From positions 1 through 64,000 of the forward strand of contig NZ_CP089540.1 in assembly GCF_021233055.1 (NCBI RefSeq): a DNA stretch of 64,000 bases, written 5' to 3'. Each line of letters opens with the position of its first letter. Positions within the stretch are counted from its first letter, which is position 1. A model generated the notes under the pieces. That model worked only from the letters and a program-made list of their open reading frames with translations. It made no database searches and was not told the DNA's origin. The translations under genes and the position numbers were made by a program. Positions 11,385 through 62,910 of this stretch are shown piece after piece. Origin of the DNA: Spirosoma oryzicola (GTDB lineage Bacteria > Bacteroidota > Bacteroidia > Cytophagales > Spirosomataceae).

Positions 11385-11440
11385 GTGGAGTCGGCGGGTG
11401 GTGTCGGTTTTGAGAAACCGACACCACCCGCCGACTCCAC
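11385..11440. repeat. 26-bp perfect hairpin containing the GGTGTCGGTTT palindrome
   Basis: Arms at 11385-11410 and 11415-11440 are perfectly complementary with a TGAG loop. The inner part GGTGTCGGTTT/AAACCGACACC is shared with the element at 62627-62699, so this is a dispersed repeat rather than a private terminator. It lies between the starts and ends of two minus-strand genes. The remainder of the 392-bp gap (11120-11511) shows no gene. Confidence 0.8.
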
Positions 11441-13771: not shown

Positions 13772-15718
13772 ATGTTTCTTACTAACTCATTGACTACACC
13801 GCTTCACTCCTGGCATGCGGCTTATCTATTGCTTGGCTTGTCAAGCGCGGTTCTGGCACAATCGACCTCTCCTACCCCGCAGGTACGCAAGGCCCCCATC
13901 ATGAGCCGCTGGGAAAAACAGATTACGGCCGAAAACGCCTGGCGTGAGTACCCTCGTCCACAACTAGTCCGCCGACAATGGCAAAACCTTAACGGAATGT
14001 GGGAGTACGCCATCACCCCAAAAACGGCCCCCGCCCCAACAACGTTTGCCGGCCAGATTCTGGTACCGTTCTGTGTAGAATCGACCGTATCGAAAGTTAA
14101 CAAACCGCTCTCCCCCGACCAGCGGCTGTGGTACCGCCGGAACGTAGCCATACCTCGTGACTGGAACGGGCAACGGGTGTTATTGCATTTTGGCGCGGTC
14201 GATTACGAATGCAATCTGTGGGTGAACGGCGGGCTGGTCGGTTCGCACACAGGCGGTTCAGACGCCTTTTCATTTGACATAACAAACTATCTTAAAGACG
14301 GTCAGAATCAAGTGTTGCTAGGCGTAACCGATCCGACGTCGACCGATGAACAACCACGCGGTAAACAGCTGCTTAACCCCAATGGCATCTGGTACACGCC
14401 AGTATCGGGTATCTGGCAGACGGTCTGGATGGAGCCGGTTCCCAAGGTTGCCCACATCGAAGAAGTACGCCTGACACCCGAAGTTGATTCGGGCCGGGTA
14501 CGGGTAGATGTATCGTTGAACACGACATTGGATAAGCCCACAACGGCGATTCGGATAACCGCGCTGGATGGCAATCAGACCGTAGCCACGACGATAGTAC
14601 GGGAAGGACGCCCCGCTCACCTGCCCATCAGCAATCCCAAATTATGGTCGCCTGACCGCCCGTTTTTGTACGATTATCGCGTCGAACTGGTAACGGTAAC
14701 CGATCCTTTTGCGGGTCGCCCCAACAACCAGCGGATGCACCGAAATGAAGGGGAGCGAGCGGCTTACGCGCAGGCAACTGTAACGGGCAATCCAACCGAC
14801 GTTGTTACGGGCTATTTTGCCATGCGTAAAATCGCGCTCGGTCCAGGTCCGGTCGCGCAACAGCCGGTCCTGCTGCTCAACAACCAGTTTGTGTTTCAGA
14901 ACGGACCGCTTGATCAGGGCTGGTGGCCAGGTAGTTTGTTAACCCCTCCCTCCGACGAGGCCATGACGTTCGAGATTGATTTCCTGAAAAAGTCGGGGTT
15001 CAACATGCTCCGTAAGCACATCAAAGTAGAGCCGGATCGCTACTACTACCTCTGCGATAAGCTCGGAATTTTGGTCTGGCAGGACATGCCATCGGGTTTT
15101 CTGGAAGGACAGAATGAATGGCCGGGCGATCAAAGCGAACCCGTTCGTCGGTCAAAGGCGAAGGAACAGTATGAACTGGAACTGCGCCGGATGATGAATC
15201 AATTGCACAGCCATCCCAGCATTGTGACGTGGGTGGTGCAAAACGAAGGTTGGGGACAATATGAAAACCCACGTTTAGCGGCTTGGGTTAAAGGAATGGA
15301 CCCGAGCCGGGTGGTCAACGCCATTAGCGGCTGGAACGACCGGAACGCGGGCGATTTCTACGACATTCATACCTACGAGCCAGAACCGAAGGCCCCGGCC
15401 CCGAAATCAGATCGCGTGGTGGTCATCGGTGAGTTTGGTGGTATTGGCTGGCCGGTGCAAGGCCATTTGTGGAATCCTGACATGCGCAACTGGGGTTACC
15501 AGACCTACCATTCGGCTGATGAGGTCCTAAAAGCGTACCAGAAAAAATACGCCAAGATCATTGATTATAAACAGAAACAGGCGCTGTCGGCAGCCGTCTA
15601 CACGCAGACAACCGACGTGGAAGGCGAAGTCAATGGCTTGCTGACCTACGACCGGGAAGTAATCAAGATTCCGGTCGAAACACTGCGTCAGATTCACGCA
15701 CCCCTTTTTACCAAATAA
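13772..15718 (+). CDS. glycoside hydrolase family 2 enzyme
   Basis: A 648-residue secreted retaining beta-glycosidase-type protein (beta-galactosidase, mannosidase or glucuronidase class). The signal peptide ends near SSAVLAQ. A sugar-binding jelly roll follows (WQNLNGMWEYAITPK, LWYRRNVAIPRDWNGQRVLLHFGAVDY), then an immunoglobulin-like domain and the TIM barrel. The acid/base is Glu492 in VVQNEGWGQ and the nucleophile Glu554 in VVIGEFGG. The barrel runs to the C-terminus, so it lacks the extra domains of long LacZ-type members. A GTG 6 bases upstream is an alternative start. It is followed after 28 bp by an enolase-superfamily gene, which suggests joint use of a released sugar acid. Specificity is not readable. 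Confidence 0.9.
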   Translation: MFLTNSLTTPLHSWHAAYLLLGLSSAVLAQSTSPTPQVRKAPIMSRWEKQITAENAWREYPRPQLVRRQWQNLNGMWEYAITPKTAPAPTTFAGQILVPFCVESTVSKVNKPLSPDQRLWYRRNVAIPRDWNGQRVLLHFGAVDYECNLWVNGGLVGSHTGGSDAFSFDITNYLKDGQNQVLLGVTDPTSTDEQPRGKQLLNPNGIWYTPVSGIWQTVWMEPVPKVAHIEEVRLTPEVDSGRVRVDVSLNTTLDKPTTAIRITALDGNQTVATTIVREGRPAHLPISNPKLWSPDRPFLYDYRVELVTVTDPFAGRPNNQRMHRNEGERAAYAQATVTGNPTDVVTGYFAMRKIALGPGPVAQQPVLLLNNQFVFQNGPLDQGWWPGSLLTPPSDEAMTFEIDFLKKSGFNMLRKHIKVEPDRYYYLCDKLGILVWQDMPSGFLEGQNEWPGDQSEPVRRSKAKEQYELELRRMMNQLHSHPSIVTWVVQNEGWGQYENPRLAAWVKGMDPSRVVNAISGWNDRNAGDFYDIHTYEPEPKAPAPKSDRVVVIGEFGGIGWPVQGHLWNPDMRNWGYQTYHSADEVLKAYQKKYAKIIDYKQKQALSAAVYTQTTDVEGEVNGLLTYDREVIKIPVETLRQIHAPLFTK

Positions 15719-15746: not shown

Positions 15747-16958
15747 ATGAAACGCAGACACTTCTTACACCAATTGACCGGCGCAACGGCTTCTGCGCTG
15801 GCCTGGAGTCCGTCGGTATTCGGCGAAGCCGCTCAACAGGTCGGATTTGATGACCTCATGCAGCACAAAATTGCCGATGTCAGTTATACCGAGGTGCAAC
15901 TGACGTGGCCGCGTTTTGTGGGTAAGAATGCCCGACGCGACATTCACGGCTATGGCCCTAAAGTCACGGTCTGTACGCTGACGACGGATCAGGGGGCCAA
16001 AGGCTGGGGGCAACCCAACGGTCGCCGGAATGATGAAATCATTGCCTACGTGCGGGGCAAGCGGGTTGCCGATCTATTCCAGCCCGCTCAGGGAGTGACT
16101 GACCCCAAAGCCCTCGCGTTTGATGTACCGCTGCACGATCTGGCAGGCATAATTTTAAACCAACCGGTTTATCAGCTGCTTGGTCAGCGAAAGCCTATTC
16201 TGACCAAGTGCTACAGCGGCATGATTTATTTCGATGAGCTGGAGCCAAAGGCGGGGCAGGTACAGACGATGGCAAACGGCATGGACAAAATCATCGAGAA
16301 CTGCGCCAGCGACTACAAACTTGGCTACCGACAGTTCAAGCTAAAAATTGGACGGGGTAATATGTGGATGGCAAAAGATGCGGGCTTACAGCGCGACATC
16401 GACGTGACTAAACTAGTAGCCAAGACTTTTCCCGACTGTGAGATACTGGTCGATGCCAACGATGGGTACACCGCTGACGGAGCGATTTCGTATCTGAAAG
16501 GGATCGGAGATATTCCGCTATTCTGGTTTGAGGAACCCTTTGCCGAGACCGTGGCCGATTACCGCAAACTTCGCGAATGGACCCGTGCGAACAAACCGAA
16601 AACCTTGCTGGCCGACGGCGAGTACGAACCCGACCAAAATCTTCTACGCGACTTAGAAACGCAGAAGCTGATCGACGTGCACATTACCGACATTATGGGC
16701 TACGGATTTACCCCCTGGCGGAAACTAATGCCGGAACTAAAAAAGATGGGCATTTTGGCATCACCGCATGCGTTTGGCGAAGTGCTGAAAACCAACTACA
16801 CGGCCCACCTGACCGGCGGCCTTGGCAACACGGTAACCATTGAGGGTGTTCCCTGTACCAGCGACGACATTGATTTTGGCGATTATAAAATTGTAAAAGG
16901 GCAGCTTGTCCCGTCGTCTGCGCCGGGGTTTGGTATGAAATTGCTTAAAAGCGCCTGA
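15747..16958 (+). CDS. mandelate racemase/muconate lactonizing enzyme family protein, exported
   Basis: A 403-residue enolase-superfamily enzyme that would abstract a proton alpha to a carboxylate, as in sugar acid dehydratases or epimerases. The Lys-x-Lys motif is K198-L-K200 (FKLKIG). Metal ligands fit Asp236 (VDANDGY), Glu262 (WFEEPF) and Glu292 (ADGEYEP), and His341 (SPHAFGE) is the second base of the racemase subgroup. The N-terminus KRRHFLHQLTG with a hydrophobic stretch is a Tat-type signal, so it likely acts in the periplasm, which is uncommon for this superfamily but seen in Bacteroidota. Its position just after GH2 points to a sugar acid substrate. Confidence 0.88.
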   Translation: MKRRHFLHQLTGATASALAWSPSVFGEAAQQVGFDDLMQHKIADVSYTEVQLTWPRFVGKNARRDIHGYGPKVTVCTLTTDQGAKGWGQPNGRRNDEIIAYVRGKRVADLFQPAQGVTDPKALAFDVPLHDLAGIILNQPVYQLLGQRKPILTKCYSGMIYFDELEPKAGQVQTMANGMDKIIENCASDYKLGYRQFKLKIGRGNMWMAKDAGLQRDIDVTKLVAKTFPDCEILVDANDGYTADGAISYLKGIGDIPLFWFEEPFAETVADYRKLREWTRANKPKTLLADGEYEPDQNLLRDLETQKLIDVHITDIMGYGFTPWRKLMPELKKMGILASPHAFGEVLKTNYTAHLTGGLGNTVTIEGVPCTSDDIDFGDYKIVKGQLVPSSAPGFGMKLLKSA

Positions 16959-17003
16959 TCTATTTCGGCTAAGAAAAACGAAGCCAATACTATCCTCAAC
17001 AAG

Positions 17004-18017
17004 TTAAGGCAGCATTGGCTTAGCACCTTTCCAGGTCAGCTTTTCATTGGACAACAGCCAGGTATGACCCTTGTCATTATTGCCTTGGTAAAACAGATAG
17101 GTTTGTTTGTTCGTATCGTCAAATACGTGCGGATGTCCTGATTCGCTGGCGTTCCAGCTGCCCGGCGCACCGTTTTTCAGAAAAGGTTCTGACTGCATCC
17201 GTTCCCAGTGCAATCCATCTTTGCTGTGCGCGACGCCGATCTGTTGCGGCCAGTTGTTGTAGGCTCCCGCATAAAACATCACCAGCTCTCCCTTCCGCTC
17301 GATTACCGACGCCCCTTCGATGCACTCTCCTTCCCAGGGCAGTTCTGGTTTTAAAATTGGCCCATCGGTAGACAGTTGCTTCCATTCGTCGCGATTGAAG
17401 GTCGTTTTCAACGGCGTTGCCGCCACGCCCAGAATCTGATTTTTGTAGGCCGGATCGCGGGTAGCGAAGTAAAGAAAGTAGTTATTCTTAAACCGATACA
17501 CCTCCGCATCAATTGCCCGACCGCAGTTCCAATCGCCCGTAGGGCGAAAGATGGGATTGGTTGCGTTACGCGTGAAATGAATGCCGTCGTCCGACCACGC
17601 ATGACAGATGGCGTCTTTAGGGCCACCGCCGTAGGTCTGGTAGAACAGGTGTATTTTTCCGTCTTTCAGCAAAGCACCGGGCGCGCAGATACCCGCTTTT
17701 TCGTAATCAGCAACGGGAGGTATTTCCGCAATTTTCTGCCAGTCAACGAGATTCCGGCTCTCGGCGACACCAATTCCCCAACCGTGCTTTACCCCGGCAG
17801 AGTCCGTGTAGGCGGGTACGGAAAAATACATCAGGTAACGGCCTTTGAACTTAACCACGTGCGGATCTTTTGCGTAGGGTCGTCCTAATCGCGACCGGTC
17901 GCCATACATCATTTTTCGGGGCTCATCGCGGTGAACAGCGAGTGGACGCAACCAGCCGCTGCTCACCGTCAACAGGATCGCCAGACATATGGGCACCGCA
18001 ACGTGGTATACTTTCAT
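17004..18017 (-). CDS. glycoside hydrolase family 43-like protein
   Basis: A 337-residue secreted five-bladed beta-propeller protein. Candidate catalytic acids are Asp51 in RPYAKDPHVVKFKGRYLMYFS, Asp in GRAIDAEVYRF and Glu in ECIEGASVI, spaced as in GH43/GH32-type enzymes. The PHVFDDTNKQTYLFYQGN end is also typical. Enzymes of this fold remove arabinose, xylose or galactose units. It lies 17 bp behind the outer-membrane barrel gene on the same strand and is probably its operon partner. The exact family (43, or a neighbouring propeller family such as 32, 68 or 117) is not certain. Confidence 0.82.
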   Translation of the reverse strand: MKVYHVAVPICLAILLTVSSGWLRPLAVHRDEPRKMMYGDRSRLGRPYAKDPHVVKFKGRYLMYFSVPAYTDSAGVKHGWGIGVAESRNLVDWQKIAEIPPVADYEKAGICAPGALLKDGKIHLFYQTYGGGPKDAICHAWSDDGIHFTRNATNPIFRPTGDWNCGRAIDAEVYRFKNNYFLYFATRDPAYKNQILGVAATPLKTTFNRDEWKQLSTDGPILKPELPWEGECIEGASVIERKGELVMFYAGAYNNWPQQIGVAHSKDGLHWERMQSEPFLKNGAPGSWNASESGHPHVFDDTNKQTYLFYQGNNDKGHTWLLSNEKLTWKGAKPMLP

Positions 18018-51379: not shown

Positions 51380-51744
51380 ATAACGCCAAATTGATTTAGT
51401 TCTAGAACGTGCGGTTAAAGGGTATCCATTTTAAAGAACCTAACAGGCCGTATTCGTTTTCCGCTAAATGCAACAGTTGCTTACTGTCTATGTCACCTAA
51501 GTTATAACTCAGATCACTGAAAGGTTCTTTGTGTTACTGAACGACCTTACACAAGCGTCTTTCGATGATTTGAAAGCACCATAGTCAACCCATCCTATCC
51601 ATCAACTGTTACGCTGTAATGAGCTAACAGTCCGGCGGGTACGTGATCTCTGCAATAGCTCCATTCCTAGTTTCAACAAAGCCAGTTAATTAAGTAAATT
51701 TTCTAAACTCTGTACGCACCAGATTATAATCTCTTTTTAATTAT

Positions 51745-51813
51745 GAACCGTTTTTCGAAAAGTCTACATTGACCCAGTTTATTGATCAATGTAGACTTTT
51801 CGAAAAACGGTTC
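51745..51813. repeat. 28-bp perfect inverted repeat beside the replication origin
   Basis: Left arm 51745-51772 and right arm 51786-51813 are perfectly complementary, separated by 13 bases. Each arm also contains the small palindrome TTTTCGAAAA. It may be a single-strand initiation hairpin, a transcription barrier guarding the origin, or a recombinase site. The 365 bp between the DUF6766 relic and this repeat (51380-51744) contain no gene or other clear signal. Confidence 0.75.
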
Positions 51814-52000
51814 GTATAAAACCGTCACCTAGTCGTCCGTACTTTTCGATACCGCTGTTTAAAAAATGGTCCGTACACTCTTTTATCATTAGTAGTTTGA
51901 CTTATAACCAGCCAACATTCTGATTGAATCATTTCTATACGCTGACTATGTGTCAGAGTAGATCGTTGAGATTCAGCAACCTGTTCTAGCAAAACTGTCC

Positions 52001-52042
52001 AACTATAACTCATATCACGTCTAACTATAACCTATATCACGT
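52001..52042 (+). repeat. iteron group 1 (2 copies)
   Basis: Copies start at 52001 and 52023. The second matches the consensus AACTATAACCTATATCACGT exactly; the first has CTCATATC instead of CCTATATC. The spacing of 22 bp places Rep monomers on one face of the helix. Confidence 0.85.
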
Positions 52043-52124
52043 ATCCGCGGAGAGTTTCTTTTTTATGCGCACTGCTTCTTATCTAGGCTGTTTATCGCTT
52101 GGTTTTTAAGAAGAAAAAGAAGAA

Positions 52125-52154
52125 AAACACACAACAAAATGCTGTTGTGTGTTT
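52125..52154 (+). terminator. terminator-like hairpin inside the origin
   Basis: A perfect 12-bp stem (52125-52136 with 52143-52154), 6-base loop, followed by C then five T. It separates iteron groups 1 and 2 and could stop incoming transcription or end a small origin RNA. Confidence 0.55.
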
Positions 52155-52227
52155 CTTTTTATAAAGTTTTAAAATAGTTTCTTTTTAGACCCTCATAACA
52201 TCTTATGAATCAGTAATTTACAAGCTG

Positions 52228-52399
52228 AACTATAACCTATATCACGTTTAACTATAACCTATATCACGTTTAACTATAACCTATATCACGTTTAACTATA
52301 ACCTATATCACGTTTAACTATAACCTGTATCACGTTTAACTATAACCTATATCACGTATGTATAACCTATAACACGTACTACTATAACCTATAACACGT
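52228..52399 (+). repeat. iteron group 2 (8 copies)
   Basis: Copies start at 52228, 52250, 52272, 52294, 52316 and 52338 with a strict 22-bp period and a TT spacer. Copy five has CTGTAT. Two variants with ATAACACGT follow at 52358 and 52380, the step before the first being 20 bp. This is the main Rep-binding array. Confidence 0.93.
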
Positions 52400-52403
52400 A
52401 CGG

Positions 52404-52412
52404 TGTGGATAA
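52404..52412 (-). promoter_or_regulatory. DnaA box
   Basis: TGTGGATAA is the exact reverse complement of the consensus DnaA box TTATCCACA. It lies 4 bp after the last iteron of the main array, so host DnaA is probably recruited for opening. Confidence 0.75.
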
Positions 52413-52545
52413 CTATAATAAGTCGCGCTAACAATGCCGATAATCCTCAAAAAGTTGGCATTCCTACACATACCCGACCGTGTTTACGGAAAATTAGCCT
52501 GAATTATGTACTGATCTAATTGTTTTAGCCTGAACGCACAGGTTG

Positions 52546-52585
52546 AACTATAACTCAAATCACGCAACTATAACCTGTATCACGT
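52546..52585 (+). repeat. iteron group 3 (2 copies) in front of rep
   Basis: Copies at 52546 (variant with CTCAAATCACG) and 52566 (CTGTAT variant) are 20 bp apart and end about 100 bp before the rep ATG. Their position fits an operator by which Rep represses its own gene or handcuffs origins. Confidence 0.75.
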
Positions 52586-52688
52586 AATGAACCACTGTTC
52601 GGGTTTCTGTGGCGTTAATAGAGTTAACGCGCAAGTTTTTGTTATGCGATCTTGTTTTTGTAAGTTCACCCCTGTTGGCTGCAATAGT

Positions 52689-54071
52689 ATGGCAAAAGAA
52701 ACGAAGGTTCGGAAGCGCGCTGATATCGGTGAACGAACGATTGCTCGCATGAAAGCGGGTCGTAACGGAATTGTGGAAGCTACGTACCGAATGGACGTAG
52801 TTGAGTTCAGAGTTTTTTTTACCATGCTGACGATGATCAGCCCGGACGATGTTACCTTCTGCGAATACGAACTACGAGTAGCTGACATTATCCGGTTATT
52901 TAGCTTGAGTCGGGATGGACGTAGCTACGAAACGATAAAGGAAGCAGCCGAGCGGTTGGTCAACAAAACAATGGTTATCTACCACACCAAGGAAGATGGC
53001 AATCGTTACCGAACCGTTATTCCATTTCTGACAAGCGCCAGCTCACAGATTGGCGATGCTAAAATGGAGTCTATTCGCGTTACGTTTCACCCCGAATTAA
53101 AGCCGTTTCTGCTGCAACTACGAACCGAATACCTGGAATTTGATGTACGGAATTTAGCGCGGGTACAAAGTCAGTATTCTATTCGGCTCTACATGATGCT
53201 GCGTCACCAGATGAACCTTAAAAAAACATCGGTTCGCTACACGGTAGAGCGTCTGCGGGAAGTTTTCGAAATCGGTGATAAAGATTACCCGCTGTATGGC
53301 AATTTCAAGCAAAAGGTTTTAGTCAGAGCCTGCACAGACTTGAGTACGACAACCAACATCCGGGTCGATAAAATGGAGGAAGAGCGTAGCAACCGGAAGG
53401 TTGTGGCGGTCGTGTTTCACATGTCTTCACAGGAACTACCGCTTGTTTTGCCCGATGGTGAAGGCATTACGGCCAGCGTAAGCACACCCGTAGCTACAAG
53501 TAGTAAAAAAAGTAATAAGGCGGTTGTTGAAATCGATGACCCAGCGACTGACTCGTTGGTAGATGAGCTTCACCCGCTCGTTGCTCAGTATGTTGGTCGC
53601 GAAGCCGTACGTACCTGGCTGCACCAGTCGTCGGAGGATCAAGTGCGTACCGCAATCGATTATACGCTAAAGCAACTTAAACAGGGGGCTACCATCAAGA
53701 ATGTGGGCGGTTATTTACAACGGATGGTGAGCATGTCGATACCCTTATCGTTTGATGAGCCGGTCCCTCCTGTCACCAAAACAAATCGCCCGACTGACGT
53801 ACAGTCGAATGTTCAGAAGGAGCAACAAGCCCTTGAAAATGCGCGACTCGAAGCCTTGACAGAGAAGAAATACCAGGCGGCCATTCAGGTGTTAAGTGAT
53901 CATCCTGAGTGGCATGAAACCGTTGCTGAACACATGCAGTCGGGTTTGTTCGGCAAGTTCTACAAGGAAAAGCTAAGTCTGCTCGAGAACATTAGGAATC
54001 CGGCTATGTACGGTCCTCTCTTCCAAGCTATAGAGCGGCTCAAAGCCGATGTTTTTACGGATATTAACTAA
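52689..54071 (+). CDS. replication initiator protein, Rep_3 (RepA/RepB) family
   Basis: A 460-residue plasmid replication initiator. Two winged-helix domains are recognisable: WH1 around YRMDVVEFRVFFTMLTMISPDDVTFCEYELRVADIIRLF, and WH2 around SQYSIRLYMMLRHQMNLKKTSVRYTVERLREVFEIGDKDYPLYGNFKQKVL. A C-terminal extension of about 180 residues is more variable and helical. I start at ATG 52689 (MAKETKVRKR) because the in-frame extension to 52587 abuts the last iteron and is Cys-rich and unlike the family. Rep should bind the iterons upstream and melt the origin with DnaA. Confidence 0.9.
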   Translation: MAKETKVRKRADIGERTIARMKAGRNGIVEATYRMDVVEFRVFFTMLTMISPDDVTFCEYELRVADIIRLFSLSRDGRSYETIKEAAERLVNKTMVIYHTKEDGNRYRTVIPFLTSASSQIGDAKMESIRVTFHPELKPFLLQLRTEYLEFDVRNLARVQSQYSIRLYMMLRHQMNLKKTSVRYTVERLREVFEIGDKDYPLYGNFKQKVLVRACTDLSTTTNIRVDKMEEERSNRKVVAVVFHMSSQELPLVLPDGEGITASVSTPVATSSKKSNKAVVEIDDPATDSLVDELHPLVAQYVGREAVRTWLHQSSEDQVRTAIDYTLKQLKQGATIKNVGGYLQRMVSMSIPLSFDEPVPPVTKTNRPTDVQSNVQKEQQALENARLEALTEKKYQAAIQVLSDHPEWHETVAEHMQSGLFGKFYKEKLSLLENIRNPAMYGPLFQAIERLKADVFTDIN

Positions 54072-54229: not shown

Positions 54230-55174
54230 ATGATCACTCAGGAGAAGCTAATCCGGTTCCTACGCGCCAAACCAGCGCTTAATCTGTCTCAGATCGAGAA
54301 AGAAGCTGGTATACCATCAAAAACGCTGCACAAAGCACTTTCTGACCAGAAAGATATTCCTGCCAAGCACCTTCCTGCCTTAGATGAAGCTGTTCGTAAA
54401 TACGGCTATTCCGAAGCGTTGTTCGATAAAGCAAAAGTAATTTCAATCGTCAACCACAAAGGGGGCGTTGGTAAAACGACAACGACGATCAATGTTGGAA
54501 AAGCGCTGAGCTTGTTAGGAAATCGCGTGTTGTTGGTGGACATGGATTCGCAGGGCAATCTTTCGCAGTGTTTCGGCATTCACGTTCCAGACGAGCAGGT
54601 GATCGACGCTTTATTGGGAGGGTCTCCCCTACCCATGATCGAAATCACCGAGAATTTGTTTCTGACGCCTTCCGATATACGCATGGCTTATCGGGAGTCG
54701 GAGCTTGCCAATTCCATCGGTGCCGATCGTCGCTTGTCGCTCAAACTGGAAGAAGCGCGGGATAAGTTTGATTATATTCTTATCGATTGTCCGCCAAGCC
54801 TGGGTATCTGTACGACTTGTTCACTGGTTGCTTCCAACTACTGTGTTGTGCCCATCCAGCCGGAAGCCAGCGCGTACCACGGTGTTGAAAGCTTGTTCAA
54901 CCGAATTGCCGAAGTACGGACCTACATCAATCCAACGTTGACGGTAAAAGGCATTGTCTTTACGATGGTGCACAAGAATCAGAGCGTCCACAAAAGTATG
55001 ATGGCTCACATTCGGGATACTTTCCAAAACTTCCACATTTACGATTCGATCATCGAAGTATCGACGGTTATCAAACAATCGCAGGTTGCCAAGGAAGATT
55101 TGTACACATATTCTGCCAAGTCTCCTTCCTGGCAGCAGTACCACCAGTTGGCTACCGAAGTAATGACGATCTGA
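54230..55174 (+). CDS. parA: ParA family partition ATPase with N-terminal DNA-binding domain
   Basis: A 314-residue Walker-type partition ATPase. Residues 1-65 are an HTH-like domain (LNLSQIEKEAGIPSKTLHKALS), as in type Ia ParA proteins that repress their own operon. The deviant Walker A is KGGVGKTT (77-84), followed by LLVDMDSQGNLSQ and IDCPPSLG. It forms DNA-bound gradients that move ParB-loaded plasmids apart. parB starts 1 bp after its stop. Confidence 0.92.
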   Translation: MITQEKLIRFLRAKPALNLSQIEKEAGIPSKTLHKALSDQKDIPAKHLPALDEAVRKYGYSEALFDKAKVISIVNHKGGVGKTTTTINVGKALSLLGNRVLLVDMDSQGNLSQCFGIHVPDEQVIDALLGGSPLPMIEITENLFLTPSDIRMAYRESELANSIGADRRLSLKLEEARDKFDYILIDCPPSLGICTTCSLVASNYCVVPIQPEASAYHGVESLFNRIAEVRTYINPTLTVKGIVFTMVHKNQSVHKSMMAHIRDTFQNFHIYDSIIEVSTVIKQSQVAKEDLYTYSAKSPSWQQYHQLATEVMTI

Positions 55175-55175
55175 T

Positions 55176-56060
55176 ATGAAAAAAGACTTCATGAGTTCGA
55201 TGAAAGAGAAGACGTCAACGTTGCGACCATCTCTCCTATCTACCGAAGAAAATATAAAGAATCAGATCCTGGTTCTCGACAAACTGCGCGATCTGATACC
55301 GCCTTTAGCCAATGACGAATACGACCAGCTTCAGCAGAATATTCTTAAACATGGTGTAAAAGATCCGCTTACCGTGTGGGAGACAACACCTGCCGCTGCT
55401 CAGGTTGATACGGACACGTCTCCGCTTTTTGTTCTCATTGACGGGCATAACCGCTACAGCATATGCCAGCAGTACAAACTCGATTACCGAATTAATCTCG
55501 TTCGGTTTTCGACGCTGGATGAGGTCAAGGATTACATGATCGATTACCAGCTGGGCCGGCGAAACCTGACCGCTGAGCAAACATCCTACCTGCGTGGATT
55601 ACGCTATCTGCAACAGAAATCGATGCGGGGCGGGAACAGAGCTGCCGAAAATGCGCAGGGCGATGTAGCGGCTACACTTGGGAAAGAATATGGCGTAAGT
55701 AGCCGAACCATCAAGCGCGATGCTGATTTTGCTGCCGGTCTGGAAAAACTGGCTCCCGGTTTGAAGCAGGACGTTTTGTCTGGGAAAAAGAAACTGGCAA
55801 AAGCGTCGATCAACGCCATTGCAAAAACGGAAATAACGGAGTCTGTCCAGGACGCCGATGACTTGATCAATGGCGTATCAGCGCCGAACGTGCCAGGCGA
55901 AAAGCTGTCGAAGGCAGGTGAAGTAACGTCGAAAAAAAGTCAAATACTATCGCTTGAGACAACCATTCGGGAACTAGCCACCGGGAAGCTTAATGTCCAG
56001 ACCTGCGCCCAACTAATCGCAAAAACAGACGAGTTGCGGGCACTACTTCGAGCAAAGTGA
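55176..56060 (+). CDS. parB: ParB family partition protein
   Basis: A 294-residue centromere-binding protein. The N-terminal ParB/sulfiredoxin-like domain has VKDPLTVWE and the nucleotide-binding motif LIDGHNRYSICQQY (in place of the GERR of chromosomal ParB). A helix-turn-helix follows (VAATLGKEYGVSSRTIKRDADFAAG), and the C-terminal 60 residues are a probable dimerisation helix. The final codons lie inside the first copy of a 29-bp palindrome. The centromere it binds is not known. Confidence 0.88.
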   Translation: MKKDFMSSMKEKTSTLRPSLLSTEENIKNQILVLDKLRDLIPPLANDEYDQLQQNILKHGVKDPLTVWETTPAAAQVDTDTSPLFVLIDGHNRYSICQQYKLDYRINLVRFSTLDEVKDYMIDYQLGRRNLTAEQTSYLRGLRYLQQKSMRGGNRAAENAQGDVAATLGKEYGVSSRTIKRDADFAAGLEKLAPGLKQDVLSGKKKLAKASINAIAKTEITESVQDADDLINGVSAPNVPGEKLSKAGEVTSKKSQILSLETTIRELATGKLNVQTCAQLIAKTDELRALLRAK

Positions 56061-56081
56061 CAGCGTGTCACTTTGCTCGAA
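56047..56081. repeat. 29-bp palindrome family, copy 1
   Basis: Core GAGCAAAGTGACA, loop GCG, TGTCACTTTGCTC. Here the stem extends to 16 bp (56047-56062 with 56066-56081) through flanks TTC and GAA. It begins in the last codons of parB and covers its stop. Confidence 0.88.
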
Positions 56082-56145
56082 AAAATTCTTTTGACAGTCT
56101 TTTATCTCGAAGTAGCAACCAGCTATTTCCGAATCAATTGCTTTC

Positions 56146-56174
56146 ATAGGCCTGTAATTCAAGGCCTATTTTTG
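56146..56174 (+). terminator. rho-independent terminator of parAB
   Basis: An 8-bp stem ATAGGCCT/AGGCCTAT (56146-56153 with 56162-56169) with an 8-base loop is followed by a T tract. It lies about 85 bp after parB, so the palindrome at the parB end is not needed as the terminator. The rest of 56082-56360 shows no gene. Confidence 0.7.
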
Positions 56175-56360
56175 TTTATACATAAGACATCTCCGTCTCT
56201 TCCTCTCGACTTTGTTCTCGAAGGTCGTTCGTCATTCGTTTTGGCAATTTCAATTATCAGTTTCCGGCGGGTAAATAAATTTTCTTTAGCTAACACTTTG
56301 AGCTACGGCGAGTTAAAATAGTATCGATTTAAGTAGAAATAGTATTACCAAAAGATTCCT

Positions 56361-56368
56361 TATTTTTG
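56361..56368 (+). promoter_or_regulatory. -7 promoter element of the susCD operon
   Basis: TATTTTTG matches TAnnTTTG 28 bp before the susC-like ATG. No clear -33 element is seen, which may mean an activator is needed. Confidence 0.4.
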
Positions 56369-56395
56369 TCGCCCAATTTAAATTTTCGCTCACTT

Positions 56396-59300
56396 ATGAG
56401 AACATTCGGTTACTTTTTAACCGTGATCTGGCTAGCGGTCTGTAGCAATACGCAGGCGCAAAATCAGCAGGTTACCGGGAAGGTCGTCAACAAAGCGGAC
56501 AAGGGTGCGTTGCCCGGTGTCAACGTCCTGATAAAGGGCACAACTACGGGTACTGCTACCGATGCAAATGGAAATTATCAGATCAGTGTCTCCAGCGGAG
56601 CAGTGCTGCAATTTAGTATGATCGGCATGACCAGTCAGGAAGTTCCGGTCGGCAATCAGACCATGATAAACGTTGAGTTAGCTGATGACGCCAGAGCGTT
56701 GGAAGAGGTGGTCGTTGTGGGTTATGGTACGCAACGCAAGATTGACGTAACGGGATCAGTTGCCCAGATCAAAGGGGAAGAACTGGTTCGCCAGCCGGTA
56801 TTATCAGCCACGCAGGCGCTGCAAAGCAAAATGTCCGGCGTTCAAATTATCAATTCGGGTGCACCAGGACAGGCACCAACCGTTCGTATTCGCGGAACAG
56901 GTACGCTGCTGGGCGGGGCCGATCCACTGTATGTGGTAGATGGGATCATTACCGAAGATATCCGCAACATCAATACCTCGGACATTACATCGGTTGATGT
57001 GCTCAAGGATGCTTCGGCGACGGCCATCTATGGGGTTCGAGCTGCTAACGGTGTTGTCCTGATCACGACCAAGCGTGGAAAAACAGGTGCGCCAACGGTT
57101 TCCTATGATGCGTATATAGGTATTCGTACCCCAGCCTACCGCGTTAAAATGGCTGACTCACAACTGTTTGCTCAATACAACAATGAAGCTGTTCGGTACG
57201 ATGATGCCAGTGCGACGCTACCGTTCGACCCGGCTACCGCTACGACGAATAACACGGACTGGTTCAAGGCGATTACCCGCACCGGTTTTCAGCAGAATCA
57301 CGCCTTGTCGGTGAGTGGTGGTACCGAGAAAACGACCTATCTGTTCAGTGCCGGTTATTTCACCGAAAAAGGGATTCTGAACGGCACGGATTATAACCGG
57401 CTTACCCTTCGTCTGAACAACGAATACACGCTGACGCCGGTGTTTAAATTAGGTCATAACCTGAGTCTTGCCAACGACAATTCAAACCTGTCGAGCAATT
57501 CTGATGCTGCTCTGCCCGAATCGAACCAAACGGTTTACGCGGCCTTCACGAATGCCTATAAGCAGGCTCCGCTGGTGCCTGTTCGGAACAGCGATGGTTC
57601 GTACGGCTATACACCACGCAACAACGTAGCCAATCCGGTAGCGCAACTGGATTACACGAACTACAAAGCGCGGGGACTCCGGCTGCAAGGCTCTTTCTAT
57701 GGAAACCTGACAATTCTGAAAAAGATCACGTTGCTCTCCAACTTCGGGATTGAGACTAACACGAGTCGCTCGTACAATTACAATCCTGTTTATCAGGTAT
57801 CGGCCAACCAGCGAAACCTGACAAGCCAATTATCGACCGGGCGGGTTAACAACACGCGCTGGCTGTGGACCAATACGGCTGAATACAGCAACACCTTTGC
57901 GGAACGCCACACGGTGAAAGTATTAGCCGGGTACGTGGCCGAGCGTTTTCAGGACAATGTTCTGGTCGCTGGCCGGCAGGATGTGCCACCCCAATCGAAT
58001 TACTTTTACCTGAACACGGGTAGCGCATCATCGGCAACCAACAGCGAAACGGGCAGTATTCAAACGCGCCAGTCGTATATCGGTCGGGTTAACTACAATT
58101 ATTCGGATCGCTACCTGTTTACGGCTACCGCTCGTTACGACGGATCAAGTAAGTTTCCGACTAACAATCGCTGGGGATTCTTCCCGTCCATTGGTGCGGG
58201 TTGGGTACTGAGTGAAGAACCATTCCTGCGGGGAAAAACGCCTTTCGACCAGTTAAAAGCGCGGGTGAGCTGGGGTAAAACCGGTAACGACCGGATCGAT
58301 CCGAGTGCCTTCCTGTACACGATTGCCAGCGGGCTGGATTATCCATTGGGACCCAATCAAACGCTGCAACAGGGACGCACCATCACCAACTTGATTGACC
58401 CTAATTTACGCTGGGAGGTTACCACGGGTACGGATATCGGTTTAGAGTTTGCCTTGGCTAATAACCGGCTTACCGGGGAGTTTGCTTATTACAACAAACG
58501 GACCAGCGACGCTTTATTTCAACGACCCATCGACGCTATTTTTGGGGATGTCGATGGGGCTTATCTGACCAACGCAGCCAGCGTCCGCAACCGGGGGTTT
58601 GAGTTTGCTTTGAACTGGCGTAACAACTCGACCAAAGGATTTCAGTATAACATAGGCGCTAACGTAACCATTAACCGCAACCGGCTCGAAGATGTACAGG
58701 GCGGCTTGCCGATCAACGAGGGTGGAATCGGTAACGGACAGTACACAACCCGCACAGCAGTCGGCCAGCCAGTCGGAAGTTTCTGGGTGTGGCAAACAAA
58801 TGGCATTTTCCAGACGCAGGAAGACGTTAACAACACAAGCGCGAAAATAGAAGGAACCAAACCGGGTGATTTCCGCTATGTGGATCAGAATGGCGATGGT
58901 GTCATTGACGACAACGACCGGATTTTTGTCGGATCGTATCAGCCTAAACTGTACTTTGGCGTGAACGGCGGCTTTACCTATCGCAGCTTCGATTTCTCGA
59001 CGGATTGGTACGCTAATTTTGGCAACAAAGTGTACAACGGTAAAAAAGCGCAGCGATTTGGTAACGAAAATATCGAAGCGTCGCGGGCCGACCGATGGAC
59101 ATCGACCAACCCCAGCAATACCGAGCCACGGGCCAGCAACGCGGTACCCATCTCGTCAACCTATTACGTAGAGTCGGGTTCTTTCTTCCGGATCAATAAC
59201 ATTACGCTGGGCTACACGCTGCCCAAATCCGTAGTGTCATCGCTTAAAGTAAGCCGGGTTCGATTTTACGTAACGGCGCAGAATGCGTTGACGATCAAAG

Positions 59301-59416
59301 CGTTCTCGGGATATACACCCGAATTGCCCGGAAGCAATCCGCTGAATGCTGGTATCGAATTGAGTACGTATCCCGTAACATCGGCGTATCTGGCTGGTCT
59401 GAACATTGGCTTTTAA
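56396..59416 (+). CDS. SusC/RagA family TonB-linked outer-membrane protein
   Basis: A 1006-residue glycan importer. The signal peptide ends NTQAQ. The CarboxypepD_reg-like domain (VTGKVVNKADKGALPGVNVLIKGTTTGTATDANGNYQI) leads to the TonB-box region LEEVVVVGYGTQRK, the plug (VDGIITEDIRNINTSDITSVDVLKDASATAIYGVRAANGVVLITTKRG) and the 22-strand barrel ending LAGLNIGF. I start at the ATG at 56396 rather than an upstream TTG because the -7 element lies between. SusD starts 13 bp later. It pairs with SusD as lid and channel. Confidence 0.97.
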   Translation: MRTFGYFLTVIWLAVCSNTQAQNQQVTGKVVNKADKGALPGVNVLIKGTTTGTATDANGNYQISVSSGAVLQFSMIGMTSQEVPVGNQTMINVELADDARALEEVVVVGYGTQRKIDVTGSVAQIKGEELVRQPVLSATQALQSKMSGVQIINSGAPGQAPTVRIRGTGTLLGGADPLYVVDGIITEDIRNINTSDITSVDVLKDASATAIYGVRAANGVVLITTKRGKTGAPTVSYDAYIGIRTPAYRVKMADSQLFAQYNNEAVRYDDASATLPFDPATATTNNTDWFKAITRTGFQQNHALSVSGGTEKTTYLFSAGYFTEKGILNGTDYNRLTLRLNNEYTLTPVFKLGHNLSLANDNSNLSSNSDAALPESNQTVYAAFTNAYKQAPLVPVRNSDGSYGYTPRNNVANPVAQLDYTNYKARGLRLQGSFYGNLTILKKITLLSNFGIETNTSRSYNYNPVYQVSANQRNLTSQLSTGRVNNTRWLWTNTAEYSNTFAERHTVKVLAGYVAERFQDNVLVAGRQDVPPQSNYFYLNTGSASSATNSETGSIQTRQSYIGRVNYNYSDRYLFTATARYDGSSKFPTNNRWGFFPSIGAGWVLSEEPFLRGKTPFDQLKARVSWGKTGNDRIDPSAFLYTIASGLDYPLGPNQTLQQGRTITNLIDPNLRWEVTTGTDIGLEFALANNRLTGEFAYYNKRTSDALFQRPIDAIFGDVDGAYLTNAASVRNRGFEFALNWRNNSTKGFQYNIGANVTINRNRLEDVQGGLPINEGGIGNGQYTTRTAVGQPVGSFWVWQTNGIFQTQEDVNNTSAKIEGTKPGDFRYVDQNGDGVIDDNDRIFVGSYQPKLYFGVNGGFTYRSFDFSTDWYANFGNKVYNGKKAQRFGNENIEASRADRWTSTNPSNTEPRASNAVPISSTYYVESGSFFRINNITLGYTLPKSVVSSLKVSRVRFYVTAQNALTIKAFSGYTPELPGSNPLNAGIELSTYPVTSAYLAGLNIGF

Positions 59417-59429
59417 GTAAACAACGAAT

Positions 59430-60929
59430 ATGAAAACCTTACAGAAAATTGCAACCTACGCTTGTTTTGGCGGACTCATGGTCGCTGGTGGTTGTTCCAA
59501 AACATTTTTGGATGTGCCGCCACAGGGACAGCAAACGCCAACTGATTTCTTTTCGAGCAATGCCGACGCAGCTACCAGCTTGGTCAACGCGATTTATTCC
59601 AAAATGCTCGACTGGAATTTCCATTCTTTTTCCTGGAATGGCGTAACCAGTATTATCTCAGATGATGCTGATAAAGGCAGTTCGCCAGGGGATACCGGAA
59701 CGGATAAAGACCAGTTGGATAACTTTACGTTTACGTCGTCGAGTCTTTCATTCAACGAGTTGTGGGGTGGCCATTACGAAGCCATCGCCAGGGCTAACCA
59801 GGCCCTGGACAATCTACCAGCGCTAAGCATTAACGATACGCTAAAAAACCGGCTGATCGGCGAAGCCAGCTTCTTACGCGCGTACTGCTATTTCAACCTG
59901 GTCCGTTCGTTTGGTGGTGTACCGCTGATTACGAAAGTAGCTGACCCTACTAATCAGACGGATATTCAGAACGGTCGGGTCCGGGCCACATCGGCACAGG
60001 TATACGCCCAAATCGAATCGGATCTGACAAAAGCCGTTGCCAATTTGCCGGAGAAGTCACAATATAATTCGGCTGATTTGGGCCGGGCGACGAAAGGGGC
60101 GGCCAAAGCGTTGCTGGCTAAAGTGTCGATGTACGAGAAAAAATGGAACGTGGTTCTCCAGTTGACCGATGAGATCATTGCATCGGGCCAATACTCGCTT
60201 ATGCCTAACTACGGAGAACTCTGGCGCGAATCGTCTGAGAACGGAGTAGAGTCGATTTTTGAAATTCAAGGCCGGGGTGTGACGCCCAATAAAGGAGTTC
60301 AGGGTTACTTTGAATCGCAGGGAGCACGTGGGGAGAATGGTTGGGGTTGGGGTTTCAATACGCCTTCCGAAGATCTGGTTAAAGCGTACGAAACGGGTGA
60401 TACGCGCATAGACGGAACGATTATCCGACGGGGTATGACCTTGTGGGATGGTCGGGTCGTTAGTGCGAACGCTGAAAATCCGTACTATAACATGAAGGCG
60501 TACGTCAGCTTTACCCGCGAAACGAACAACGGCAATACGTGGGAAACCAGCAAAAATATTCGGGTGCTGCGCTACGGTGAAGTACTGCTGATGAATGCTG
60601 AAGCGGCCAACGAGTTGGGACAGCCAACCAAAGCGTTAACGTCGCTCAACCTGGTTCGGGCACGGGCGCGGGGCGGTGTTTCGGGTGTTCTTGCCAACGT
60701 TACGACTACCGCCCAAACCGATCTACGGCAGGCTATCTGGCGCGAACGTCGGGTTGAAATGGCCTTTGAACACGACCGGTATTTTGATCTGGTTCGTCAG
60801 GGACGGGCAGCCGCCGTTTTTCAGGCGCTTGGCAAAAACTTCGTGACCGGTAAACACGAGTTATTCCCAATTCCACAGCCTCAAATTCAGTTAAGTGGTG
60901 GGCAGCTAACACAGAATCCAGGGTACTAG
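59430..60929 (+). CDS. SusD/RagB family nutrient-binding lipoprotein
   Basis: A 499-residue surface lipoprotein (lipobox AGGC near residue 22). The SusD-like N-terminal motif KTFLDVPPQGQQTPTDFF and the helical tetratricopeptide-type fold (GEASFLRAYCYFNLVRSFGGVPL, KGAAKALLAKVSMYEKKW) are followed by the C-terminal RWIRRERRVEMAFEHDRYFDLVRQG-like segment (here WRERRVEMAFEHDRYFDL). It captures glycan for the SusC partner immediately upstream. Confidence 0.97.
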   Translation: MKTLQKIATYACFGGLMVAGGCSKTFLDVPPQGQQTPTDFFSSNADAATSLVNAIYSKMLDWNFHSFSWNGVTSIISDDADKGSSPGDTGTDKDQLDNFTFTSSSLSFNELWGGHYEAIARANQALDNLPALSINDTLKNRLIGEASFLRAYCYFNLVRSFGGVPLITKVADPTNQTDIQNGRVRATSAQVYAQIESDLTKAVANLPEKSQYNSADLGRATKGAAKALLAKVSMYEKKWNVVLQLTDEIIASGQYSLMPNYGELWRESSENGVESIFEIQGRGVTPNKGVQGYFESQGARGENGWGWGFNTPSEDLVKAYETGDTRIDGTIIRRGMTLWDGRVVSANAENPYYNMKAYVSFTRETNNGNTWETSKNIRVLRYGEVLLMNAEAANELGQPTKALTSLNLVRARARGGVSGVLANVTTTAQTDLRQAIWRERRVEMAFEHDRYFDLVRQGRAAAVFQALGKNFVTGKHELFPIPQPQIQLSGGQLTQNPGY

Positions 60930-61031
60930 GCATTCGATAATCGAATCTAATTTTAGTCGGCTTCTGTACCGGTAGTGGGCAATAAAACGCTTTGCCGCTG
61001 GTGCCGAAGCCGATCTTTTATTCTGAAAGTT

Positions 61032-62450
61032 ATGAGACTACTATTCATTCTTCTTTTATCATGTGGTGGCTTAACTATGGTTTGCTGCCAACCGAAACCC
61101 CAACCCATTGCCTCTGCTCCAACGGCGTTTTCTCTTTCTAGTTCTGACGTTCAGTTTCTGGATAGTTTGCAACGCGATACTTTCCGCTATTTCTGGGAAA
61201 CGAGTAACGCTGACAATGGACTCGTCCCTGACCGCGCCCCCTCAAATTCGTTTGCCAGCATTGCCGCTGTAGGATTTGGCCTGACATCGTATCTGGTCGG
61301 GGTTGAGCGTGGCTATATTACGCGGGCGCAGGCTGCCGAGCGAACGCTTAAAACCTTACGTTTCTTCGCCAATGCACCTCAGTCGGAGAAAGCATCGGGC
61401 ATTGCGGGATACAAAGGATTTTTCTACCATTTTCTGGATATGAAAACCGGCGAACGCTTTAAGCAGGTCGAGCTTTCGACCATCGATACGGCCCTGTTAC
61501 TAGGCGGCATACTGAGTGCGCAAAGCTATTTTGATCAGAACAACGCCACTGAAACCGAGATCCGGCAACTCGCGGATACGATCTACGGACGTGCTGACTG
61601 GACGTGGTTTCAAAATCATAACGGTGCCAAGCCGCTGGTTTCAATGGGTTGGCATCCTGAAACTGGCTTTATCAAAAACGACTGGGCGGGATACAACGAA
61701 GGCATGTTGCTTTACGTGTTGGCACTGGGTTCGCCGACGCATCCTGTCGGTACGGATGCCTGGACTACCTGGACAAAGACCTACCCATGGGCCACCTTTT
61801 ACGACCAGACACACCTAAACTTTGACCCTCTATTTGGCCACCAATACTCGCACGTATGGATTGATTTTCGTGGTATCAAAGATGAATACATGCGCGGAAA
61901 AGGTATCGATTACTTCGAGAATTCACGGCGGGCAACCTACGCGAACCGAGCTTATTGTATGGCAAACCCGGCTAAATGGCAGGACTACAACTCAACCATT
62001 TGGGGACTCACCGCTTGCGATGGACCCAGCGATACACTGGTAAATGGGAAACAATTCTTTTCCTACCGGGCGCGTGGGGCAGCGAGTACACAGATCGTTG
62101 ATGACGGGACGATTGCGCCTACAGCGGCTGGTGGATCGATGGCTTTTGCACCCGAAATCTGCGTCCCGGCCTTACGAGCCATGAAAACAAAATACGGAGC
62201 CAAGCTTTATGGTACCTACGGGTTTCGGGATGCTTTCAACCCTACGTACCGGTATCCTGCCCGCGTGGCCAATGGTTCAACCCAAAACGGCTGGTTTGAT
62301 ATTGATTACCTAGGCATTGACCAAGGACCAATTTTACTGATGGCTGAAAATCTACGAACGGGTTTTATCTGGAAACTGATGCAGAAAAACCCCCATATCA
62401 AACGTGGACTCGTGAAGGCTGGGTTTACGGGAGGATGGGTAGCCAACTAA
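61032..62450 (+). CDS. glucoamylase-family (GH144-like) secreted lipoprotein enzyme
   Basis: A 472-residue enzyme with an (alpha/alpha)6 barrel. The start is ATG 61032; a lipobox-like MVCCQ near residue 18 marks a lipoprotein. Family blocks are LDSLQRDTFRYFWETSNADNGLVPDR, FASIAAVGFGLTSYLVGVERGYITRAQA, GYNEGMLLYVLALGSP, FGHQYSHVWIDFRGIKDEYM and ENSRRATYANRAYC. These fit the Glycoamylase Pfam group, which includes GH144 endo-beta-1,2-glucanases. With SusCD upstream it forms a small utilisation locus; a beta-1,2-glucan or similar glucan is an inferred substrate. Confidence 0.88.
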   Translation: MRLLFILLLSCGGLTMVCCQPKPQPIASAPTAFSLSSSDVQFLDSLQRDTFRYFWETSNADNGLVPDRAPSNSFASIAAVGFGLTSYLVGVERGYITRAQAAERTLKTLRFFANAPQSEKASGIAGYKGFFYHFLDMKTGERFKQVELSTIDTALLLGGILSAQSYFDQNNATETEIRQLADTIYGRADWTWFQNHNGAKPLVSMGWHPETGFIKNDWAGYNEGMLLYVLALGSPTHPVGTDAWTTWTKTYPWATFYDQTHLNFDPLFGHQYSHVWIDFRGIKDEYMRGKGIDYFENSRRATYANRAYCMANPAKWQDYNSTIWGLTACDGPSDTLVNGKQFFSYRARGAASTQIVDDGTIAPTAAGGSMAFAPEICVPALRAMKTKYGAKLYGTYGFRDAFNPTYRYPARVANGSTQNGWFDIDYLGIDQGPILLMAENLRTGFIWKLMQKNPHIKRGLVKAGFTGGWVAN

Positions 62451-62498
62451 TAAATTCGTACAGTTAGCGTAGTTGTTCATTAGGGTGTAAAACAGGAT

Positions 62499-62535
62499 CG
62501 GGGAGCAAAGTGACAGCGTGTCACTTTGCTCCCCG
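62499..62535. repeat. 29-bp palindrome family, copy 2
   Basis: The same 29-base core as copy 1, but the stem extends to 17 bp by different flanks (CGGG and CCCG). It lies about 50 bp past the GH144-like gene. Confidence 0.88.
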
Positions 62536-62626
62536 GTGTTCGTAAATGAGGAGTTTGTTATGATATCAGGTTCTATAATTTGAAATGCCAATCAAGCCGA
62601 GAGTGCCAGATTTAGTGATGTCGGCG

Positions 62627-62699
62627 GGGCCGCCCGCGCGGTTCTCAAAACCGACGCTTGGCGTCAGCAACTGGTGTCGGTTTTAAGAAACCGACACCA
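62627..62699. repeat. second GGTGTCGGTTT palindromic element (composite)
   Basis: A 12-bp hairpin TGGTGTCGGTTT/AAACCGACACCA at 62672-62699 with TAAG loop, preceded by a half-copy GGTTCTCAAAACCGAC (62640-62655) and a small GACGC-TTG-GCGTC hairpin. TCGGCGGG at its left edge is also present in the 11385-11440 element. Confidence 0.7.
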
Positions 62700-62867
62700 C
62701 CGCAAGGGATATACTGCTATGAGCTGATAGAACCACAACCAGTATCTATTCGTCAATGGATTATTGGCTATTGCTGGTAATCATGATCTCGAAATCGATG
62801 TTATCCTGCCGGAAAAAACTATAGGCAAATGACAAGTCGGCTTAAGTCATTGTCACCCGATAAATGC

Positions 62868-62910
62868 AAAATTGGAGCAAAGTGACAGCGTGTCACTTTG
62901 CTCCAATTTT
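62868..62910. repeat. 29-bp palindrome family, copy 3
   Basis: The same core with a 20-bp stem; the extra pairs are AAAATTG and CAATTTT. It lies 16 bp past the end of the START-domain gene. The 475-bp convergent gap 62451-62925 thus holds three palindromic elements and no gene. Confidence 0.9.

Follow-up and report, generated by a model that had tools for sequence, protein, structure and literature searches.

Palindromic candidate parS sites beside a Spirosoma oryzicola parAB locus with a divergent ParB-like protein, with arms that may have grown by template switching

The plasmid partition systems F sopABC and P1 parABS have their centromere downstream of parB, and the canonical chromosomal parS site is TGTTTCACGTGAAACA. 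Here we analyzed bases 1 to 64,000 (the window) of the 240,128-bp contig C3 (NZ_CP089540.1) of Spirosoma oryzicola, the genome of which comprises 7.33 Mb in 10 contigs, and focused on three palindromes that lie at and beyond the end of a parB-like gene. With high probability, these palindromes are parS, the centromere of the ParABS partition system of this replicon, a prediction made from sequence comparisons. This is by far the best reading because position, copy number, and co-diversification with ParB support it together. We favor, with less confidence, the fuller account that they are predicted parS sites with arms grown by template switching. The features concerned are as follows:

54230..55174, plus strand: parA ATPase gene, 314 aa (AAA_31, E 1.2e-48; CbiA, E 5.6e-23)
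55176..56060, plus strand: parB-like gene, 294 aa, with a ParB/Srx-fold N-domain, a helical middle, and a helical C-terminus
56047..56081, no strand assigned: parS-like palindrome copy 1, 16-bp arms, spacer GCG, overlapping the parB stop codon
56146..56169, plus strand: terminator-like hairpin 3' of parB, followed by TTTTTGTTT and separate from palindrome copy 1
62499..62535, no strand assigned: parS-like palindrome copy 2, 17-bp arms, spacer GCG
62868..62910, no strand assigned: parS-like palindrome copy 3, 20-bp arms, spacer GCG

The three copies share an identical 29-bp core at 56050-56078, 62503-62531, and 62875-62903, which gave three exact matches in the window and none in 100 shuffles. 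Perfect arms around the 3-nt spacer extended for 16, 17, and 20 bp in copies 1, 2, and 3, respectively. Beyond the 13-bp half-core, this corresponded to 3, 4, and 7 flanking pairs, all complementary and different in sequence in each copy; simple arithmetic gives a chance of about 4^-14 for 14 of 14 such pairs. As single-stranded DNA, every copy forms a single perfect hairpin, and no spacer flip was found among the three, all of which carry GCG. Copy 1 includes the parB stop codon TGA, copy 2 starts 48 bp past a glycoamylase-like gene, and a START-domain gene on the opposite strand has its stop 15 bp from the end of copy 3. An earlier note, made from the letters of the window, had described the positions and common core of the copies, their pairing over 16, 17, and 20 bp with differing yet self-complementary flanks, their location at gene ends with one inside the parB stop, and a separate parB terminator 85 bp on. 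All of these observations were reproduced. Taken as a whole, the note stands in its description of the hairpins and in the ParB-centromere role that it listed, and not in its inference of selection or in the REP (repetitive extragenic palindromic) and terminator roles.

The palindrome was linked to parB across genomes. In the genome of S. oryzicola it occurred in three copies only, even with 3 mismatches allowed, and all were within 6.9 kb. When up to 3 mismatches were allowed, a survey of 36 genus genomes detected it in nine, exactly those nine encoding a ParB of at least 57% identity; it was absent from eight further genomes with a ParB of at most 51% identity. Among the matches listed, the genus sites were at, or no more than ~100 bp from, the parB stop. 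In the family (222 genomes; 21-bp core with up to 1 mismatch), 31 genomes carried the core, and a ParB match was present in 26 of these 31 as compared with 45 of the 191 others (Fisher p 1.6e-10), again among the matches listed. Related loci come from Spirosoma, Siphonobacter, Arcicella, Dyadobacter, and Rudanella.

The position of the sites was examined in 100 parB loci, consisting of the window and 100 stretches around family ParB relatives, one of which was without parB. Within 60 bp of the parB stops, 52 perfect 10-3-10 inverted repeats were found in 12 kb (43 per 10 kb), whereas beyond 3 kb the two sides had 0.19 and 0.32 per 10 kb, so that the repeats were roughly 135-230 times denser at the stop. 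The next 540 bp downstream of this zone contained 41 repeats and the 540 bp upstream, within parB, contained 16, and 22 repeats lay 3 to 1.5 kb upstream of the stop. A perfect repeat was located no more than 600 bp from the stop in 69 of the 100 loci, and copy 1 is of the common site type at the parB stop. The sites of relatives also formed clusters, 51 of the 62 neighbors less than 250 bp apart being spaced at 45-112 bp; such clusters of specific palindromic sites near parAB are a feature of ParABS systems. The link to parB in all nine genus genomes, the density at the stop, and the co-diversification described below strongly support, as a prediction, the ParB-binding centromere that the earlier note had put forward.

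Two arrays were observed in addition. Locus L112 (G153:C3) has, at 16746-17240, four sites with the AAAGTGACA core, 158 bp apart in similar surroundings and ~34 kb from the parB of the contig. Locus L148 has, at 14178-15046, 11 near-palindromes of the form AAAGTATCA...TGACACTTT, mostly 76-80 bp apart; one common mismatch between half-sites is present in all 11, and one member has a further change.

The sequence of the sites tracked that of ParB, as in ParABS systems. Across 70 loci, ParB identity and half-site difference were correlated with a Mantel r of -0.49 (0 of 5000 permutations). The half-site was identical in 80-87% of pairs at a ParB identity of at least 60%, and 3.7 of 9 half-site bases differed at 40-50% identity. 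These loci yielded 23 distinct half-sites, including AAAGTGACA, TAAGTGCAA, ATGTGGTAA, ATGTTGCCA, and TAAAGGACA, some of them from a single locus; paired with ParBs of one family, they constitute a data set for the ParB-parS recognition code and for plasmid incompatibility. Contigs C2 and C5 of the same genome also encode ParB relatives, with the near-palindromic half-sites TAAGGG(A/T)CA and ATGGTG(T/C)CA, respectively.

The predicted model of the ParB-like protein matched CDP-bound ParB, Noc, and KorB structures (KorB: 8qa9, 8qa8), and its N-domain showed the ParB fold of the CTPase type that characterizes ParABS; on this model, the helical middle is the probable DNA-binding part. Sequence searches of the PDB gave nothing useful (one match at E 1.3 in one search, and none in another). 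A gene for a ParA-type Walker ATPase directly adjoins parB, as in ParABS systems, and the 294-aa gene product is very probably a divergent ParB-fold protein of such a system.

Pairing beyond the core was evaluated at sites picked by the core alone, which keeps the choice of sites independent of flank pairing. Of the 51 exact AAAGTGACA sites, 27 had at least 4 paired flank bases, against a shuffled mean of 2.1 and maximum of 8, and runs of at least 6 occurred in 21 (shuffled mean 0.70, maximum 4). Likewise, when the first three flank bases were left out of the count, runs of at least 6 were present at 9 of 15 TAARGGACA sites, against a shuffled mean of 0.7 and maximum of 5. For the 17 Runella-type TAAGTGCAA sites, pairing exceeded every shuffle at run lengths of 4 and 6 only; neither the runs of 8 nor the fraction paired did so, the latter being 0.485 against a shuffled mean of 0.434 and maximum of 0.578. 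Arms reached 41 bp among the sites of relatives, and the flanks varied from site to site.

Flank covariation is real and widespread, but not universal. No listed site with at least 6 paired flank bases was present in 28 of 79 loci, although one of these, L097, has an unlisted variant site with longer arms. Paired and unpaired copies adjoin on one replicon (L115, L116, and L118), and further copies with unpaired flanks exist in relatives (e.g., L115:10302, L118:7715, L108, and L109). The arms ended abruptly, the pairing past the first mismatch being 0.251 versus 0.263 for random partners. At least 6 paired flank bases were found at 39 of the 81 sites near the stop and at 34 of the 72 sites elsewhere, but at 3 of the 26 sites in the parB frame. 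At L099 (9329-9458), neighboring palindromes have mirrored arms, with a 41-bp arm at one and 20 paired flank bases at the next, a pattern resembling the outcome of two copying events from a single flank.

A weak tendency toward paired flanks was also seen at other palindromes. For canonical chromosomal parS, 148 genomes from the phylum were searched, at least 78 of them with a match, and 31 distinct sites at 30 loci were measured; paired runs of at least 4 were present in 7 of the 31 (shuffles mean 1.1, maximum 5). Four of the 22 examined REP-like copies in the own genome had 16-25 bp of extra paired flank. As a generic hairpin background, we used 20 stretches of 20 kb (18 from the own chromosome and 2 from G005), in which 6 of the 10 9-3-9 repeats other than a coding-internal one were extended by at least 4; long-armed intergenic hairpins are therefore not unique to parS. 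Within the parB loci, parS-like hairpins were also set against an 'other' class, a comparison from which no conclusion was drawn because this class mixes terminators and unrecognised parS types; it gave, for loop 3 and arm 9, extensions of at least 4 in 22 of 36 'other' hairpins (0.61) versus 0.65 of 93 parS-like ones. A separate long-armed hairpin type with the common core ATACGCC[GA]TATCT was observed at L124 (8548-8622, on a 47-kb contig of G002) and L169 (13127-13193, on the own chromosome), where the flanks differ yet stay paired.

To compare sites between orthologous loci, defined by a ParB identity of at least 80%, we used 91 matched site pairs, which are non-independent within groups and arrays. 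The spacer was the same in 48 pairs, the exact reverse complement in 30, and otherwise different in 13, and flips occurred in 10 of the 17 ortholog groups yielding a matched pair. Among jointly paired flank columns, 344 were unchanged and 40 had changed on both sides, in a count that leaves out columns past the shorter arm and thereby under-counts one-sided breaks. At L202/L203 (one site) and L224/L225 (two sites), all 93 bases shown agree except for the inverted spacer. The two parS-like sites of L224/L225 are in the parB frame, 430 and 499 bp before the stop, and the flip converts HKGQNVPY to HKGHFVPY at both, altering two ParB residues per site. At L127/L130, 6 of 19 jointly paired columns had changed, every one still being paired, and co-changes were also found in L151/L152.

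In a yeast study (PMC8604942), template switching is described as inverting the spacer for arms over 9 bp and homogenizing the arms, and one 5-bp arm had grown to 16 bp by this process. The relatives, as distinct from the window copies, show the same exact spacer inversion in otherwise identical sequence. Exact inversions between near-identical orthologs point toward a copying mechanism able to pair flanks without selection.

These data can be combined in one model. The two half-sites of 9-13 bp each (AAAGTGACA...TGTCACTTT), separated by a 3-bp spacer, would be read in double-stranded form by a ParB dimer, and the ParB-parS complex would be moved by ParA. The centromere would hold a strong palindrome in one place, where DNA polymerase could repeatedly switch template, and each switch could copy a flank to the other side, keep the arms alike, and flip the spacer. 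Provided that the sites are parS, the paired flanks are probably a by-product rather than selected, selection being clearly the less likely of the two, because of the spacer flips, the abrupt arm ends, the short flanks of in-frame sites, and the weak tendency in canonical parS and REP copies. Hairpin-like flanks are not proof of a functional hairpin. The earlier note had reasoned that paired change reflects selection for the fold, which does not follow, given that paired flanks are frequent rather than obligatory and that orthologs carry exact spacer inversions; the unpaired copies in relatives listed above are, moreover, what the note itself had named as speaking against its covariation argument. 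If the flanks are a by-product, a site held by a DNA-binding protein can become a template-switching hot spot, and covarying flanks, which are normally read as the sign of a hairpin under selection, may form in the absence of such a hairpin.

Several observations weigh against parts of this account. Regarding the centromere, five of the 31 core-bearing family genomes (G093, G103, G124, G128, and G177) had no ParB match among the matches listed, although the core match of G177 is asymmetric and may be chance. No perfect 10-3-10 repeat was found within 600 bp of the parB stop in 31 of the 100 loci, where some sites are imperfect and others are unexplained. Pfam and NCBIfam models gave no match for the 294-aa protein, and ParB_N matched only weakly, in 7 of 59 relatives. 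Regarding template switching, arms of at least 15 bp had mismatches in 1 of 588 flank columns versus 10 of 693 core columns (p 0.014), which is unfavorable because uniform homogenization does not predict fewer mismatches in the flank than in the core; our guess is that this difference would arise if the core hairpin primed the flank to be copied again and again without being re-copied itself. In Dyadobacter, none of 11 sites had runs of at least 8, and no flips were found in six matched parS pairs from three species. Spacers limited to A/T in some families may render AAA/TTT flips less telling, and some of the inverted repeats in the matched site pairs are probably something other than parS. 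Both controls were weak, the fraction paired lying inside the shuffle range for both canonical parS (0.368; maximum 0.382) and the REP copies (0.407; maximum 0.519). The single coding-internal 9-3-9 repeat of the background showed no extension, which coding constraint can explain.

Among the alternatives, the one that survives best is a selected hairpin centromere, in which the outer arms of parS are kept paired and the site works partly as a cruciform or single-strand hairpin read by ParB or a replication protein. It would account for flank pairing far over shuffles (runs of at least 6 in 21 of the 51 AAAGTGACA sites against a shuffled mean of 0.70 and maximum of 4), for the arms of orthologs that stay paired through co-changes (L127/L130 and L151/L152), for arms reaching 41 bp with flank mismatches in only 1 of 588 columns of long arms, and for the perfect folding of every window copy. 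We nevertheless consider it doubtful, in view of the 28 of 79 loci without a listed site of at least 6 paired flank bases (L097 having its unlisted variant), the short arms at sites within parB, and the paired and unpaired copies side by side at L115, L116, and L118; spacer inversion, in addition, requires a copying or recombination event regardless. A search of titles and abstract openings of open-licence papers gave no paper on a parS-ParB cruciform. A test for RNA-type selection on the parB sense strand, in which 12 of 37 mismatches were G-T and 6 were A-C, with 36 of the 37 in the core, was not decisive. A little less likely still is a cruciform centromere, where ParB would read the core only, or better, when extruded, and arbitrary paired arms of up to 41 bp would be selected to drive extrusion; in that case, the spacer flips would be the scar of frequent in vivo extrusion and resolution.

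A role of the sites purely as operators for ParB or another regulator, and not as a centromere, is improbable. The 22 repeats 1.5-3 kb before the parB stop would be near the start of parA for genes this long, but the repeats are densest around the parB stop, not at a promoter, and the multi-site clusters resemble centromere clusters.

A role at gene ends in bidirectional termination or in the protection of mRNA 3' ends is more improbable again. All three window copies are at gene ends, a loose scan for intrinsic terminators includes copies 1 and 2, and the stem of copy 3 ends in AAAA/TTTT. However, the sequence after copy 1 is AAAAAATTC and lacks a T-run, and a separate terminator of parB lies 85 bp further on, so that the bidirectional terminator role suggested by the earlier note is not general. 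Copy 3 gave no intrinsic-terminator match, no copy has a clean T-run, and the scan total of 17 was not in clear excess over shuffles (14.1, standard deviation 4.2). The copies of relatives are also located within parB and in clusters, and the core sequence varies with that of ParB.

A REP-like dispersed extragenic element, including the REP-like mRNA end protector of the earlier note, has next to no probability, since the sites are palindromic, extragenic, and repeated but, instead of many dispersed copies, number three in 7.33 Mb, all within 6.9 kb, and the REP-like family of this genome has a different sequence.

With up to 2 mismatches allowed, that family, GTGTCGGTTT-N4-AAACCGACAC, occupies 102 places in this genome. 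Its members often form pairs ~40 bp apart, and it has members in the window at 11385-11440 and 62672-62699.

The candidate parS sites belong to a plasmid-type backbone at 52-56 kb of the window, which comprises iteron-like repeats, a Rep_3 initiator, ParA, and the ParB-like gene. Its remaining features are as follows:

52001..52585, plus strand: iteron-like direct repeats upstream of rep, in which the 20-nt unit D3 occurs 11 times, mostly at a spacing of 22 bp
52587..54071, plus strand: Rep_3-type replication initiator gene

Upstream of this replication region, a 31-bp inverted repeat with 97% complementarity and 13 nt between the arms was observed at 51742-51816. An Rfam scan of the window gave no family match. 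Copies 2 and 3 are 6.4 and 6.8 kb from copy 1, and a long receptor-like frame, a SusD-family gene, and the glycoamylase-like gene are encoded in between. Because close neighbors in relatives are mostly 45-112 bp apart, these intervening genes may have entered between parS sites.

Titles and abstract openings of open-licence papers gave no account of such palindromic sites. Compared with described systems, the locus resembles F sopABC and P1 parABS in the parA-parB pair beside a replication initiator, the inverted repeats at the end of parB, and the nucleotide-binding fold of the ParB N-domain. It differs from them in the half-sites, which are 9-13 bp long and enclose a 3-bp spacer, in long self-complementary flanks, in a site that overlaps the parB stop or, in some relatives, is in the parB frame, and in a ParB unmatched by Pfam. 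Canonical parS is likewise a palindromic ParB site, sometimes with paired flanks (at least 4 in 7 of 31), but its 16 bp have a different sequence and no spacer. Identity of the window sites with canonical parS was rejected on these grounds, and the exact canonical sequence TGTTTCACGTGAAACA was found in none of the 36 genus genomes. KorB of RK2 is also a plasmid ParB-fold protein, the structures of which (8qa9 and 8qa8) were matched by the ParB model of the window; the KorB operator differs from the window sites in sequence and length. Template switching at short inverted repeats in yeast (PMC8604942) similarly involves exact spacer inversion and co-changing arms, but that case concerns yeast coding genes, whereas here a DNA-binding protein probably keeps the sites where they are. 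The window sites very probably represent a known kind of centromere system with a divergent ParB.

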